Below, piece by piece: positions 7,248 to 17,675 of a stretch of 34,246 nucleotides of DNA. Made by a program: the position numbers and the translations under genes. Every line of letters starts with the position of its first letter. Positions within the stretch are counted from its first letter, which is position 1. The stretch comes from an uncultured Nitrospirota bacterium (GTDB lineage: Bacteria; Nitrospinota; Nitrospinia; CAJXCL01). The notes beneath the pieces are model-generated. The model did not search any database, was not told the DNA's origin, and was given only the letters and a program-made list of their open reading frames with translations. Location: assembly GCA_913051775.1 (NCBI GenBank), contig CAJXCL010000017.1:1-34246 (forward strand), in the 5' to 3' direction.

Positions 7248-7322
7248 ACCATAGCGCGGCCGTAACCTAAAAATAGAACACAGATTACGCTGATTAAACA
7301 GATTTTTGTTTCACAGATTCTC
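7248..7322. repeat. Dispersed-repeat fragments between aspS and gltX
   Basis: Immediately after the aspS stop, AGCGCGGCCG matches the left end of the 170-bp repeat at 24808. It is followed by AACACAGATTACGCTGATTA and a second AGATT-containing segment (7276-7322), which resembles a CACAGATTA-type intergenic repeat common in several bacterial groups. Confidence 0.4.
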
Positions 7323-10769: not shown

Positions 10770-12005
10770 TTAAAAAGGAAATATTGTTTCCCCTTCAACC
10801 ATTGAAAAAGTTATTTCTCCTTTTGATGAGAAAATGGATTTGTATATATCGTCATCTCTATTTATTTTAAGGCCTATAATATCAGCTTTTTTCCCTGTTT
10901 CCAGGCTACCAACTTCTTTTTCAAGCCAGAGCGCCTTGGCTCCGTTTATAGTAACCATTTTAAGCAATGTTTCGTGGTTGATTTCAGGAAATTGCTTTCT
11001 AACTAAAATTAATTCCTCAAACATATTCAATGTTTTGTTGCTGGCAAGACTGTCCGTTCCTATCGCTACATTAATATTGTTTTCCAGGAATTTCGTTAAA
11101 TGATAACTACGGTCTCTTTGAAACCATCGATTGCTGTTCGGACAGCATACAACAGACATATTATTTTTCTTTATGATTTTAAAGTCTTCACCATTAATAT
11201 GGTTCAAATGTATTCCTGTAATGCCGTTTAAATCTCCTGAATTCTCTAAATATTTTATTGGAGATGTTTTTTCTGGTTTCCATTCAGGTTCCCATCTATC
11301 TAAACTTTCCAGCAATTGTCGCAAGTCCCCCTCCCCATTTTCAATAAATTCTAACTCCTCTTTTGTCTCAGCAATATGCATAATTAATGGCAACTTTTTA
11401 ACTTTGGCTAAACTAAAAGATAACTTGATTAATTGTGGTGACACACTATAGGTCGCATGTGGAGACAGTCCACATTTTACCAGGCTATCACCCTTGCAAT
11501 CCCAAAGCAATTCATGAACCCGGTTCATTTGATCTTCTATCATTGATTTTTTAAATCCAATTATTTCTAAGAAAATTACTCCACGCACTCTCATGTTCTG
11601 CATTACTTTTGTTGAAAACCCGCTTCTCGATATATCTCCTATTGTTGTAGTGCCGGTTGCAATTAAGTTTTTGATTCCTTCTTTGCATGCATCCTTTTCA
11701 TCTATTTCAGTCAAAGAATCGTTGTAGGAAATAATTTCTTTAATCCAAGAGTTGAAAGGTATTCCGCTTTTTATTTTGTTCTTTAAACGCGATAGCGATA
11801 GGTGCGTATGGGTATTCACCAGTCCAGGCATTACCAGATGGTCGGGATAATGGGAAACTTGATGATGGGCAATATTGGGACAGTCTTTTTCTCTTCCAAT
11901 AAATTGAATTTTTCCGTTTTTTATTAATATGGACCCATTTTGAATTACAGGAGTAGTAACAGGCAGGATAAATTTTGCGTTTATACGAATCGTGTGATCA
12001 GACAT
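10770..12005 (-). CDS. Amidohydrolase, MTA/SAH- or aminofutalosine-deaminase type
   Basis: This 411-residue cytoplasmic TIM-barrel hydrolase of the TrzN/MtaD group would deaminate an adenosine derivative. Metal and catalytic residues are visible: H66 and H68 in NTHTHLS, H183 in SPHATYS, H210 and E213 in MHIAETKEE, H266/H269 in GIHLNHI, and D318 in GTDSLASN. The CCPNSNRWF segment and TDSLASN are typical of the branch containing aminodeoxyfutalosine deaminases (MqnX) as well as MTA/SAH deaminases. The substrate cannot be fixed from sequence alone. The neighbouring phosphorylase gene, separated only by a dead AsmA remnant, favours an MTA-to-methylthioinosine role. A GAAGG lies upstream of the ATG at long spacing. 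Confidence 0.82.
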   Translation of the reverse strand: MSDHTIRINAKFILPVTTPVIQNGSILIKNGKIQFIGREKDCPNIAHHQVSHYPDHLVMPGLVNTHTHLSLSRLKNKIKSGIPFNSWIKEIISYNDSLTEIDEKDACKEGIKNLIATGTTTIGDISRSGFSTKVMQNMRVRGVIFLEIIGFKKSMIEDQMNRVHELLWDCKGDSLVKCGLSPHATYSVSPQLIKLSFSLAKVKKLPLIMHIAETKEELEFIENGEGDLRQLLESLDRWEPEWKPEKTSPIKYLENSGDLNGITGIHLNHINGEDFKIIKKNNMSVVCCPNSNRWFQRDRSYHLTKFLENNINVAIGTDSLASNKTLNMFEELILVRKQFPEINHETLLKMVTINGAKALWLEKEVGSLETGKKADIIGLKINRDDDIYKSIFSSKGEITFSMVEGETIFPF

Positions 12006-12063
12006 TAAAAAAAGATACCTTCTTCAGGAAATTCTAAAAAGGATTAGTTAAAATAACATATAT

Positions 12064-12440
12064 TTACTTCAATAATCCACCAAGCCCCTTTCCAATACCT
12101 TCTAAAACGTCTCTTTGAGATCATCGACAGGTTTCTTTTCTTTATGTTTCGGCTATGAAGCAGGTTTTGTGGTGCAGTTTTTTTGCCTTGAGACATGGCA
12201 GGTAAACATGAATTTTCATCTCCTGAATGCGTCTGTTACGGTATGTAAGTAAAGGATGAAAGAAAGTTTAACTTTAAATTATCCGTCTCTCTTAAGCTCT
12301 CGACCAGTGGTTTAGGTTACCTTCTGAGCTATCAAGCCGCAATATTTACTAAAATCCATTGACTTCAAAATCAATGCAACAGCCACGACTGCTATTAATA
12401 TAACAGCAACAAAAATAGTAAGTATGGTTTTAATGCGCAT
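12064..12440 (-). pseudogene. Internally deleted AsmA-family remnant
   Basis: On the minus strand an ATG at 12440 opens a typical AsmA start: MRIKTILTIFVAVILIAVVA, a membrane anchor, then DFSKYCGLIAQKVT. An in-frame TAA follows, after which the frame continues TTGRELKRDG, another TAA, and FKVKLSF. This matches the AsmA pattern of a lipid-facing N-terminal anchor followed by ATGREL and a strand-rich segment. The far end (12064-12103) in another frame reads LEGIGKGLGGLLK and stop, a typical AsmA C-terminal tail, preceded by KEKKPVDDLK. Almost the whole periplasmic body is gone. The gene is dead. Confidence 0.72.
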
Positions 12441-12539
12441 GAGATTTCCCTGCCAGGTCTAACAGGCTAAAGCGATGAGAATGCGGAGTTTTTATGATTT
12501 TAAAAATATTCTGGCGGTTTGCAGTCCTGCATAATAAAA

Positions 12540-13409
12540 TTATTGAATCCATGAACGCCAATCTTCTGAAATTATCCCATCCTTTTTGTAGCGATGCATT
12601 GCGTTTTTGCAAGAACAATTTCTTTCTAAATTCTGAATAAGCTCAATGGATTTTCGGATAATCACAGGAAACCTTTTACATGAAAAAGAGGCTTTTTTTT
12701 GTTCATCATTATTTATCATTCCTTCAAAGAGTTCTCCTTTTTTAAAAGGACGATCCGATATTCCTTCCGCAAAATTAGTGAGGTAACAAATTGGCGCATA
12801 GCACATCTCAAGTTCTCGAGCTAGAAAAGTTTCCGGGATAAGGGTCATTCCAACCAAATCTCCGCCTGATATTTTATATTTATTAATTTCAGCAGCCGTT
12901 TCAAGGCGCGGTCCCTGAGTGCAAACATAAACCCCATTATTATGGAATTTTAAATTAAGTTCGTGAAAGGTTTTGATCAGTGCTTCTCTTGTTTCTTTAC
13001 AAAAAGGAGATTTATGTCTGATAAAACCAATACCTTTCTTCTCAAAAAAAGTATATTGACGATTCTTTGTTTCATCAATTATGTCGTGTGGCAGAACAAA
13101 ATCTCCAACGGAAAACCCAATGTTAATAATTCCGGGTCCGGACCATGAAATAATCCTTTCCACTTCACACTCTTTTAAGGCCCAGATATTAGCGCGATAA
13201 TTCACGAAAGGAGCTGATATGGAGTATCTTTCTTCTCCGTGTCTGGAAAGAAAAAGAAAGTTAATGCCGTCTTTAGAAAATCTGTGGATAGGAGCGCTTT
13301 CTCCAAAAGGGGTAGGAATTTTTTTGCATTCCAAGTTTGTTCCAAAATCACCATTACGTAAGATGTCATAACCGCCACTTCCGGCAATAACAGCAAATTT
13401 AGCATCCAT
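12540..13409 (-). CDS. Purine-nucleoside / methylthio-nucleoside phosphorylase (MtnP family)
   Basis: This 289-residue trimeric-type nucleoside phosphorylase has phosphate-binding GSGG (10-13), RHG (56-58), and the family blocks VGDFVLPHDIID (101-112), TQGPRLET (164-171) and GGDLVGMTLIPE (182-193). These identify the MTAP/PNP-II family, which cleaves MTA or 6-oxopurine nucleosides with phosphate. In the base-recognition loop it reads TNFAEGI (N212), like 6-oxopurine PNPs, not the Asp of classical MTA phosphorylases. Together with the adjacent deaminase-type amidohydrolase this suggests methylthioinosine phosphorylase activity (inference). The start is preceded by a palindromic repeat rather than a Shine-Dalgarno. 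Confidence 0.88.
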   Translation of the reverse strand: MDAKFAVIAGSGGYDILRNGDFGTNLECKKIPTPFGESAPIHRFSKDGINFLFLSRHGEERYSISAPFVNYRANIWALKECEVERIISWSGPGIINIGFSVGDFVLPHDIIDETKNRQYTFFEKKGIGFIRHKSPFCKETREALIKTFHELNLKFHNNGVYVCTQGPRLETAAEINKYKISGGDLVGMTLIPETFLARELEMCYAPICYLTNFAEGISDRPFKKGELFEGMINNDEQKKASFSCKRFPVIIRKSIELIQNLERNCSCKNAMHRYKKDGIISEDWRSWIQ

Positions 13410-13417
13410 ATTTTTAA

Positions 13418-13486
13418 ACCGCAGAGTACGCTGAACCCACAGAGACGTATAATTTTGTTATCAGCGTACTTCGCGATCTCTGCGGT
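13418..13486. repeat. Bipartite inverted repeat (CCGCAGAG type)
   Basis: Two perfect 9-bp arm pairs are nested: ACCGCAGAG (13418-13426) with CTCTGCGGT (13478-13486), and GTACGCTGA (13426-13434) with TCAGCGTAC (13461-13469). Half-matches occur at 5351-5375 and 32230-32245. It sits between the dsbA stop and the phosphorylase start and could form a hairpin in the readthrough transcript. Confidence 0.75.
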
Positions 13487-13490
13487 AAAT

Positions 13491-14105
13491 CTATTTATTC
13501 GATAACAATTTAGAAATGATCAAATCCAGGTTTTCAGTCATTTTTTCTACATCGCCTCCCGCTATCCTGGGAGTTACTTTAATCACATCATTTATTATAA
13601 TCGTAGGGGTCTCACTGGCCTTATATTTTGAGGCCAACTCCATGCCTTGTCTTACTTTTGCAATCAAATTATTTTGGTTTCTAACGTCTTCTGCTATTCC
13701 TGACTCGCTTATAATGAAATTCACTACACGCGGATCAAAAATTTGCGCCCCTCCATCAAAATTGGCGTCGAAAATATTCTTTGTCACTTCTTCGGCCATT
13801 CCTTTACTTTGCGCCAAATAAAAAGCGATAGCTGGAAATTGTGTCTGCCTTCCCCAAAAAATTGGAATTTTCACATAAGCAAGTTTATTGCCATATTTGA
13901 GTTCAAGGTTTTTGGAATACGTTAAGAATTTATAACAATGTCCGCAGGAAAAATTGAAAAACTCAACTATCGTAACGCGATCTTTTCCGAAGGCTTTATT
14001 AATATCACCGAGAAGCACATATTTACCAGGTAATGTTTTAAATCCAAAACTTTTAATTGGAAATAACAATATCGCAGCAAACAAAATTATTAAAATCTTT
14101 TTCAT
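13491..14105 (-). CDS. DsbA-like thiol:disulfide oxidoreductase
   Basis: This 204-residue exported protein has a signal peptide (about 3-20) and a thioredoxin fold with the redox motif C54-G-H-C57 in NFSCGHCYKF. A helical insertion follows, and a cis-Pro loop (SETPTIIIN) is present. This matches DsbA-type oxidases, which introduce disulfides in periplasmic proteins. No dsbB is nearby. AGGAGGT precedes the ATG. The gene begins 9 bp after the stop of the cytochrome fusion gene and is almost certainly co-transcribed with it. It could serve general folding, or act specifically on the cysteine-rich partner (inference). Confidence 0.9.
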   Translation of the reverse strand: MKKILIILFAAILLFPIKSFGFKTLPGKYVLLGDINKAFGKDRVTIVEFFNFSCGHCYKFLTYSKNLELKYGNKLAYVKIPIFWGRQTQFPAIAFYLAQSKGMAEEVTKNIFDANFDGGAQIFDPRVVNFIISESGIAEDVRNQNNLIAKVRQGMELASKYKASETPTIIINDVIKVTPRIAGGDVEKMTENLDLIISKLLSNK

Positions 14106-14114
14106 TACGACCTC

Positions 14115-15485
14115 CTAATGTTTTATTTTTTCCCAATAGGTTGAAAATTTATAATTGGGACTGTTTTCCCTAGTATGGCATGGTAAACAAGAATCTTCAG
14201 TAAGTTTTTTATAAAGTATATTAATTTTTTTCTGTCCCGCTTTATGGTCTCGCATTATAAATTTCATATGGTTGCTACCTGCTCCATGACATGCCTCACA
14301 CTGAACATTTATTAATTTAGGTGTTATGCTTTCCGACATAAACCCCCCATTCTGCTTAAATCCCGTAGTATGGCATTTTAGACATTCCGGATCAAAAGAT
14401 TTATTAGACTTTTTTAGTGATTTAAAAGAATGGGAATGGCCGCTTTTCTTCCAGATGGCGTATTCATATCTATGGCACATTTTACATGCAATTTCTGTAA
14501 TGAAAGTTTTTTTTATTGCCCTTTTCTTGTCCTGCAACCATTTCATAAAAAGCTGCTTTGTTTCGTCGTTGTATTTGTCATAAATAGATTGCACCAGTTG
14601 GCTGTCATTAATTTTACTGTTAAGTGGAATATACTCATTGGAAATATTTTGAATCTTTTTTTGATCAGTGGATATAGATATTTTCCCTAAGTACTGCCCT
14701 CGTTCTCGAACATGAACCATTATTTTCTTTCCTGCTATTTCAGGATTAACAATAAGCTCGGTTTCATCCAGGTGCCCATTTATAACAATATCGACATCAT
14801 CTAAATTAAAAAGTTCTTTTGCCTTCTCCTTATCCATGTGCGTCAGCAACAAGATAATATTTGCTTCACCTGCTGCTTTAAGCTTTCTTAATATTTTTTC
14901 TAAACTAATTCCTGGATTCTCTACTTTAACCTTTGTTTGTCCTTTTGCAAAAAAGAGTTCTTGCCCCAAAAGCCCTATAACAGCTATTGTTGTTCCATTA
15001 TTGAATGTTTTTAAAAAGTACTTTATCGTTTTTTCCTGTTTAAGATTATTATTCTCTACATTGCTAAGAACCCAATGATCAAATGATCCTTGGTTTAATA
15101 TTTCCTCACCATAAACAAAATCTTTTTCTCCTAAAAGCGCTGCATCATAACCCATTTTGTTAAAGCCTTCGATCATAGTTTTCGCTTTTAATTTTCCCTG
15201 CTCTGTCGGTTCTTTAAAGGTATCGCCTGCATCCAGCAGCAGGATATTTTTATTAACAGAGCGTTCTTTTTCAATAATAGTTGCCCGTCTAAGAATTCCG
15301 CCTAAATCCTCTTCTTCCGTACAACCGCAAGGTTTTACTTCCCCCAAAACAGAGCCCGTGTAAAGGATGATCAGAGACTCTTCAGCAAAAACAGGAATGG
15401 AAATTAGACAGGAAAACAGGATAAACGCCACCAGAAAACTTGTTCGATATTTTTTTGAACTACTATTGATATTTAACTTATTCAT
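14115..15485 (-). CDS. Metallophosphoesterase-like / tetrahaem c-type cytochrome fusion
   Basis: This 456-residue exported protein has a signal peptide at about 17-34. Residues 38-290 resemble the UshA/SoxB-type calcineurin-like phosphoesterase fold: LLLDAGDTF (82-90) and INGHLDE (235-241) are retained. The first D-x-H is replaced by a GSVLGEVKPCGC stretch (PCGC, 52-55), and the usual GNHE reads LGEKDF (118-123). The C-terminal domain has four CXXCH haem sites: CKMCH 334-338, CLKCH 368-372, CEACH 396-400 and CLPCH 433-437, in an arrangement like cytochrome c554-type domains. It is probably a periplasmic redox protein with a degenerate or altered metal site. Substrate and partners are unknown. 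It is followed directly by the DsbA-like gene. Confidence 0.85.
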   Translation of the reverse strand: MNKLNINSSSKKYRTSFLVAFILFSCLISIPVFAEESLIILYTGSVLGEVKPCGCTEEEDLGGILRRATIIEKERSVNKNILLLDAGDTFKEPTEQGKLKAKTMIEGFNKMGYDAALLGEKDFVYGEEILNQGSFDHWVLSNVENNNLKQEKTIKYFLKTFNNGTTIAVIGLLGQELFFAKGQTKVKVENPGISLEKILRKLKAAGEANIILLLTHMDKEKAKELFNLDDVDIVINGHLDETELIVNPEIAGKKIMVHVRERGQYLGKISISTDQKKIQNISNEYIPLNSKINDSQLVQSIYDKYNDETKQLFMKWLQDKKRAIKKTFITEIACKMCHRYEYAIWKKSGHSHSFKSLKKSNKSFDPECLKCHTTGFKQNGGFMSESITPKLINVQCEACHGAGSNHMKFIMRDHKAGQKKINILYKKLTEDSCLPCHTRENSPNYKFSTYWEKIKH

Positions 15486-16754: not shown

Positions 16755-17675
16755 TTATTCATTAATTCTCTCTCCTGCATCTACCAAATCCGGGTATTCT
16801 TTTTTTATGAAGCTTTTTAACCTGTCAAAAAGTCTCTGTTCTGCCTGTCGTACAGCTTCTTTTGTGATGCCAGAGCGGTCTGCAATTTTCTGCAGGGTAT
16901 CCGGGTTATTCGACATGATACGGTTTTCCAAAATATCCCTATCGCTCTTTTTCAAATCTGATTTAAAGGTCGAGATACTTTTCCGTAAATCAGAATGAAA
17001 AAGTGTTTCAATGAAATCATCCTCAGCGTTTTCTGTTGGTTCAGGTAAAATATCAATCAATTCGCCCTTTTCATTATCACCTGCCGGTGAATGTAACGAT
17101 ACATCAAAAGCGCCAAGGCTTTTATCCACTTCAACAATTTCTTCAGGGGAAACATTGAAATGAGCGGCTAATAATTTAGGAGTGGGAGAAAACCCTTCAG
17201 CAAGAAGCCGGTCTTTTTCCTTCTGAAGATTATATAATAATTTGCGGCGTGTATTCGTAGTACCAACCTTTACCATGCGCCAGTTGTCCATAATGTATTT
17301 TAGAATATAAGCTTTTATCCACCAGGTGGCATAGGCTGGAAGTCTTACCCCCTTTAAGGGCTCAAACTTTTTCACAGCCTGCATGAGACCTGTATTTCCT
17401 TCCTGAATAAGGTCGAGAAGATTTTGAAACTCTCTTTTGAACTTCATGACAATTCTTACCACTAACATAAGGTTGGAAGTAACCAATTTGTATGCGGCAT
17501 CGGCATCTCCTTCTTTCCAGTATTTGATTGCCAGCGAATATTCTTCTTCTGCTGTCAACTCGGGGTACTGCTTGACCTCGTTGATATAGGCTTGAAGCGG
17601 ATCGCTTACAACCAGTGATTGTTTTTGGTGTTTCTGTTTTTTCTCCAACCAATTTTTTTTCTTCTTTTTGCTCAT
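16755..17675 (-). CDS. rpoH: RNA polymerase sigma-32-type (RpoH-like) factor
   Basis: This 306-residue sigma-70-family factor begins with a Lys-rich tail (1-20). Region 1.2 starts at DPLQAYINEVKQYPELTAEE (25-44). Region 2 includes LLDLIQEGNTGLMQAVKKFE (86-105) and the -10-reading AYATWWIKAYI (114-124). A region 3 linker follows. The region 4.2 helix-turn-helix has DILENRI and ITKEAVRQAEQRLFDRLKSF. Length and sequence resemble heat-shock sigma-32 rather than primary sigma or flagellar sigma. The start codon has no Shine-Dalgarno and lies only 6 bases after a TATAAT box, so the transcript may be leaderless. Confidence 0.88.
   Translation of the reverse strand: MSKKKKKNWLEKKQKHQKQSLVVSDPLQAYINEVKQYPELTAEEEYSLAIKYWKEGDADAAYKLVTSNLMLVVRIVMKFKREFQNLLDLIQEGNTGLMQAVKKFEPLKGVRLPAYATWWIKAYILKYIMDNWRMVKVGTTNTRRKLLYNLQKEKDRLLAEGFSPTPKLLAAHFNVSPEEIVEVDKSLGAFDVSLHSPAGDNEKGELIDILPEPTENAEDDFIETLFHSDLRKSISTFKSDLKKSDRDILENRIMSNNPDTLQKIADRSGITKEAVRQAEQRLFDRLKSFIKKEYPDLVDAGERINE

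Follow-up and report, generated by a model that had tools for sequence, protein, structure and literature searches.

The window analysed here, a stretch of 34,246 nucleotides from an uncultured Nitrospirota bacterium (Nitrospinota in the GTDB lineage; contig CAJXCL010000017.1), carries on its minus strand an uninterrupted open reading frame (14115..15485) for an exported, UshA-like tetrahaem cytochrome of 456 residues with a PCGC motif, followed by a dsbA gene. Residues 1–34 (15384..15485, minus strand) form a signal peptide, recognised by eye (FLVAFILFSCLISIPVFA) and modelled by AlphaFold2 as a helix at residues 10–28. The mature part begins with a domain of the UshA/5'-nucleotidase N-terminal type with a degraded dimetal site (residues 36–290; 14616..15380, minus strand), as judged from NCBIfam, Foldseek and structure alignment, and contains the motif P52-C53-G54-C55 (15321..15332, minus strand), a proposed redox-active pair marked out by its conservation among 75 family members. 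It ends in a tetrahaem domain of the cytochrome c554 type (residues 330–456; 14118..14498, minus strand), recognised through PF13435 and the structures 1bvb and 6i5b, with the haem sites CKMCH (residues 334–338; 14472..14486), CLKCH (368–372; 14370..14384), CEACH (396–400; 14286..14300) and CLPCH (433–437; 14175..14189), all on the minus strand. The four CXXCH sites, together with a Pfam match to Cytochrome_C554 (PF13435) of E 9e-18 and 65.4 bits, above the gathering cut-off of 20.8, place this part among the c554 domains, while the Pfam match to Metallophos is weak and sub-threshold. The best PDB matches of the AlphaFold2 model (pLDDT 89, pTM 0.86) are CD73/UshA 5'-nucleotidases (Foldseek, E 6e-22), and SoxB- and UshA-type models of NCBIfam also match the protein, at 57.9 bits against a cut-off of 550 and 37.9 against 600, respectively. 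In the Pfam scan of the protein, neither a C-terminal 5'-nucleotidase domain nor a membrane domain of DsbB (PF02600) or VKOR (PF07884) was found. The initial annotation, made from the sequence alone, had read this gene as one exported polypeptide joining a UshA/SoxB-like fold to four CXXCH sites, and reading frame, Pfam, NCBIfam, AlphaFold2 and Foldseek all agree with it; the structure prediction that it proposed returned a CD73/UshA-type fold, and both domains lie in one protein in all 75 relatives checked.

The earlier description of this type of protein stands, but it had named no family, and the type is already catalogued in NCBIfam as NF041198 (UshA_like_PCGU, "UshA-like (seleno)protein"), in which the second cysteine of the motif can be selenocysteine. 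The window protein scores 254.3 bits (2e-75), below the cut-off of 275, which is passed by none of the 77 genomes of the window's phylum; nevertheless it shares with NF041198 the two-part architecture, both halves of the 519-position model being matched (positions 15–270 and 342–519, at 14142–15401), and the PCG[C/U] motif, present here as PCGC. In the Caldithrix member (L125) the second cysteine codon is TGA (PCG-TGA), as expected for selenocysteine. It corresponds to the COG0737 CxU selenoprotein of PMC2398784 and appears also among the CxU selenoproteins of PMC9312934 and PMC13188914; none of the three gives it a function. The architecture is thus catalogued with no function attached, and the family assignment by itself is ordinary; neither a DsbA link nor a function for NF041198 was found in the papers searched, which include only a minor part of the subscription literature. 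The family was examined in the best 80 of 473 relatives that a scan of named genomes returned, and 75 members were aligned. These 80 come mostly from Nitrospinota, and also from Nitrospirota, Gammaproteobacteria, SAR324, Planctomycetota including Scalindua, Poribacteria and Calditrichota; the window genome belongs to the same class as the Nitrospinaceae. Among the Nitrospirota, the cytochrome protein occurs in 22 of 296 sampled genomes and is only about 30% identical to the window protein. Since P52, C53 and C55 are present in all 75 aligned members (G54 in 74) and the four CXXCH sites are conserved across several phyla, the motifs of this reading frame cannot be put down to chance.

In the window protein the D-x-H position reads S45-V-L47 and the GNHE position reads GEKD, so that the complete dimetal set (DxH, GDxxD, GNHE, H, GHxx) is absent through loss of DxH and GNH, while D85 (DAGD), H216 (THM) and H238 (NGH) are kept. 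The claim that the metal motifs are partly lost, with DAGD and NGH retained, therefore holds, and the decay is further advanced in relatives; that PCGC stands in place of D-x-H does not hold, as the alignment puts PCGC in a loop 7–10 residues after the lost D-x-H position. The surviving ligands are found in 64 (D85), 57 (H216) and 52 (H238) of the 75 members; all three remain in most Nitrospinota, H216 and H238 are gone in the Nitrospirota members, and no single metal ligand is kept throughout the family, the set having been lost piecemeal. By contrast, the four CXXCH sites and the histidines 350, 406 and 456 are invariant among the 75, and in 73 of them the PCGC pair supplies the only cysteines of the mature part beyond the eight of the haem sites. 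Cytochrome c554 has three bis-His haems and one five-coordinate haem, a ligation pattern that the three invariant extra histidines fit; the window version shares with c554 its four CXXCH sites and a domain match to 1bvb, but is fused to a nucleotidase-type domain. With UshA/CD73 5'-nucleotidase and SoxB it shares the N-terminal fold, but its dimetal site is broken and their C-terminal substrate domain is replaced by the tetrahaem domain; lost ligands and missing domain together rule out an intact nucleotidase or SoxB. A conserved metal–cysteine centre that includes PCGC is unlikely, given that PCGC stays where D85, H216 and H238 do not. As the metal ligands decay while PCGC and the haem ligands are invariant, the selected function appears to lie in the C-X-C pair and the haems, not in hydrolysis. 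The initial annotation had suggested a repurposed fold with PCGC redox chemistry wired to the haems; the loss of the hydrolase site is supported, and the wiring is the best guess that this pattern of conservation offers.

One reading of these features is that a SoxB relative has turned into an oxidase that acts on a small sulfur compound or thiol. PCGC would bind or oxidise this substrate, the haems would carry the electrons away, and the cysteines would be reset by DsbA or TlpA. SoxB is indeed among the better superfamily matches, and D85, H216 and H238 persist in most Nitrospinota. Many of the carriers belong to Nitrospinota, SAR324 or Chromatiales-type lineages for which nitrite or sulfur oxidation is known, and a thioredoxin gene of the TlpA/AhpC type is found close to the paralogue in the window genome. 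Yet no sulfur-oxidation gene was evident by eye among the recurrent neighbours, none of the metal ligands is family-wide, and the C-terminal substrate domain of UshA is missing, so that we regard such an enzyme as improbable.

The cytochrome gene is followed on the same strand, after a gap of 9 bp, by dsbA (13491..14105), which encodes a proposed redox partner of 204 residues and whose class is indicated by PF01323 (44.5 bits against a cut-off of 25.6), by the active site CGHC (C54–C57; 13935..13946, minus strand) and by the cis-Pro loop ETPT. Its ribosome-binding site AGGAGG (14111..14116, minus strand) overlaps the TAG stop of the cytochrome gene, an arrangement which, from the sequence, makes translational coupling of the two genes likely. 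The 9-bp spacing had been reported before and is confirmed, and the link is conserved, in some genomes as a gene fusion. Among 60 genomes of the Nitrospinota class, 48 have both genes, two have DsbA only (one of them at a contig edge), none has the protein only and ten have neither (Fisher p 9e-10, uncorrected for relatedness, the counts being phylogenetically non-independent). The DsbA homologue is on the same contig and directly downstream in 46 of the 48 genomes with the protein, and this window-type DsbA is the only close DsbA found in Nitrospinota genomes. In Nitrospirota of the [E/T]CGC type, DsbA lies directly downstream in at least 15 of 17 genomes, while the RRCGC subgroup of five genomes (L163–L166, L168) is without a dsbA next door. 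Four gammaproteobacterial genomes, all of one clade, encode the protein with DsbA joined to its C-terminus, as seen in sequence for all four and confirmed with PF01323 in the two fusions scanned (L113, L116). The linked DsbAs of these other two phyla score 63–80 bits against the window DsbA, and the best among canonical DsbAs of solved structure reaches 53 bits. Many members of the family, those of SAR324, Planctomycetota, Poribacteria and one gammaproteobacterial group as well as the window genome's paralogue, lack a neighbouring dsbA, which counts against the role proposed below.

Several other neighbours were observed at these loci. A gene for a CtpA-like S41 peptidase follows dsbA in 44 Nitrospinota loci, at a place where the window has a methylthioadenosine phosphorylase-like gene; CtpA was considered as a partner and rejected, as it lies two genes downstream in those 44 loci and not in the window or in Nitrospirota loci. 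A SAM-hydroxide-hydrolase-like gene (LITLTTDFG, by eye) comes after the RRCGC gene in at least three Nitrospirota loci. The second copy in the window genome (L002:1483-2883, G000:C71) is 65% identical to the window protein and has no dsbA beside it; a gene for a TlpA/AhpC-TSA-type thioredoxin lies nearby on the upstream side, and a cytochrome-like reading frame (CTDCH) on the downstream side. In Planctomycetota and Poribacteria, DUF1573 (HYDIN-like Ig, with an SCGCT motif) is fused or adjacent to PCGC or PCTC tetrahaem proteins (L117:6249-9302, L120:9242-10279 and L128:6760-7818), with a C-x-C motif in both partners.

Adjacency and fusion would also be expected if DsbA were a dedicated maturation factor, oxidising or guarding the PCGC or haem cysteines of a cytochrome that does something else once mature, and DsbL/DsbI, encoded next to assT, is a known precedent, DsbL serving arylsulfate sulfotransferase. 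A single-client role is nevertheless unlikely for what is the only close DsbA of a Nitrospinota genome; moreover, the only pair that could be its client, C-G-C, would make a poor structural disulfide, and the loss of DsbB and VKOR would be left unexplained. For these reasons we consider a dedicated maturation factor unlikely.

The distribution of the known DsbA oxidases bears directly on the role of the pair. Among the 60 Nitrospinota-class genomes, DsbB was detected in one and VKOR in two, with positive controls that worked, and all of these matches fall in two genomes of family f4, which has neither the PCGC protein nor the window-type DsbA and in which VKOR and a DsbA-like domain form one protein. 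Of eight genomes outside Nitrospinota with linked or fused genes, none has VKOR and a single one has DsbB, encoded beside a separate DsbA-like gene. VKOR occurs in five of 13 genomes outside Nitrospinota in which the genes are unlinked. Most carriers with a linked DsbA are therefore without detectable DsbB or VKOR, although they may possess other, unrecognised DsbA oxidases. Within the order to which one of the fused gammaproteobacteria belongs, DsbB was present in seven and missing in 33 of 40 genomes (VKOR in 0 of 40). Because it is missing there with or without the PCGC protein, its absence is uninformative in this order, and the use of DsbB absence as proof in Gammaproteobacteria was abandoned when this control failed.

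From these comparisons of sequence, we propose that the window protein is a periplasmic re-oxidant of DsbA, a role that we hold to be just on the probable side. Reduced DsbA, from the next gene or from a fused domain, would give two electrons to the PCGC disulfide, a shuttle disulfide carried on a catalytically dead nucleotidase-type scaffold, which would pass them singly to the four c-type haems and from there to the respiratory chain; the role of DsbB or VKOR would thus be filled without a membrane quinone step, and other thioredoxin-fold proteins may be the partners of those family members that have no linked DsbA. The redox activity of PCGC, the flow of electrons to haem, its direction and the final acceptor are all points that we infer. 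DsbA linkage alone is compatible with either direction of flow. The initial annotation had suggested that DsbA handles the PCGC cysteines; the link with dsbA is real, but the opposite direction, with PCGC acting on DsbA, fits the distribution better, because the window-type DsbA is the only close one in Nitrospinota and DsbB and VKOR are absent there. Electrons could also run in reverse, the haems reducing PCGC so that DsbA- or TlpA-like partners are kept reduced, as DsbD does, and the selenocysteine variants and TlpA-type neighbours would fit this too. However, its CGHC site and TPT cis-Pro loop mark the partner as a DsbA and not a DsbC or CcmG, and the absence of DsbB and VKOR fits an oxidase, which makes a reductase very unlikely.

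The proposed re-oxidant would share with DsbB and VKOR its task, and VKOR is likewise joined to a DsbA-like domain in family f4, but it is a soluble haem protein of unrelated sequence, without quinone-binding membrane helices. Thiol relays through C-X-C pairs are known from Mia40 (CPC) and Erv2 (CXC), and cytochrome c receives electrons from Erv1 (PMC4019985). As in the mitochondrial Mia40–Erv1–cytochrome c relay, a C-X-C pair would stand upstream of a c-type haem (PMC4019985), although Erv1 uses FAD and the proteins of that relay are unrelated to the window protein, so that the likeness is one of analogy and not homology. It is quite possible, even if we lean slightly against it, that the family as a whole is a further disulfide-generating class, a soluble, haem-wired and quinone-independent oxidase of DsbA-type proteins that would be the main disulfide source of Nitrospinota and of some Nitrospirota and would have selenocysteine versions in other lineages. 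The functional lead is of interest because the fusion or operon with DsbA extends across three phyla and DsbB and VKOR are missing in Nitrospinota. The family has been on selenoprotein lists since at least 2008 without a role, and the DsbA linkage gives it a specific one to test. It also offers an explanation of how DsbA may be re-oxidised in bacteria in which neither DsbB nor VKOR can be detected. If the proposal is true, multihaem electron transfer and periplasmic protein folding would be directly linked in marine nitrite oxidisers and in other organisms.

Elsewhere in the window, an imperfect inverted repeat (ACCGCAGAG...TACGCTGA / TCAGCGTACTCTGCGGT; 13419–13487) lies between dsbA and the methylthioadenosine phosphorylase-like gene. 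Degenerate matches to it occur at 7278 and 32160, and a terminator and an interspersed repeat are both possible readings of it. That phosphorylase-like gene stands beside one for an amidohydrolase of the aminofutalosine deaminase family (10770–13409), both below their NCBIfam cut-offs, and a role of the pair in nucleoside salvage or a menaquinone-related process is possible. At 16755–17675 there is a gene for an RpoH-like sigma factor, which scores 243 bits against the RpoH cut-off of 323.
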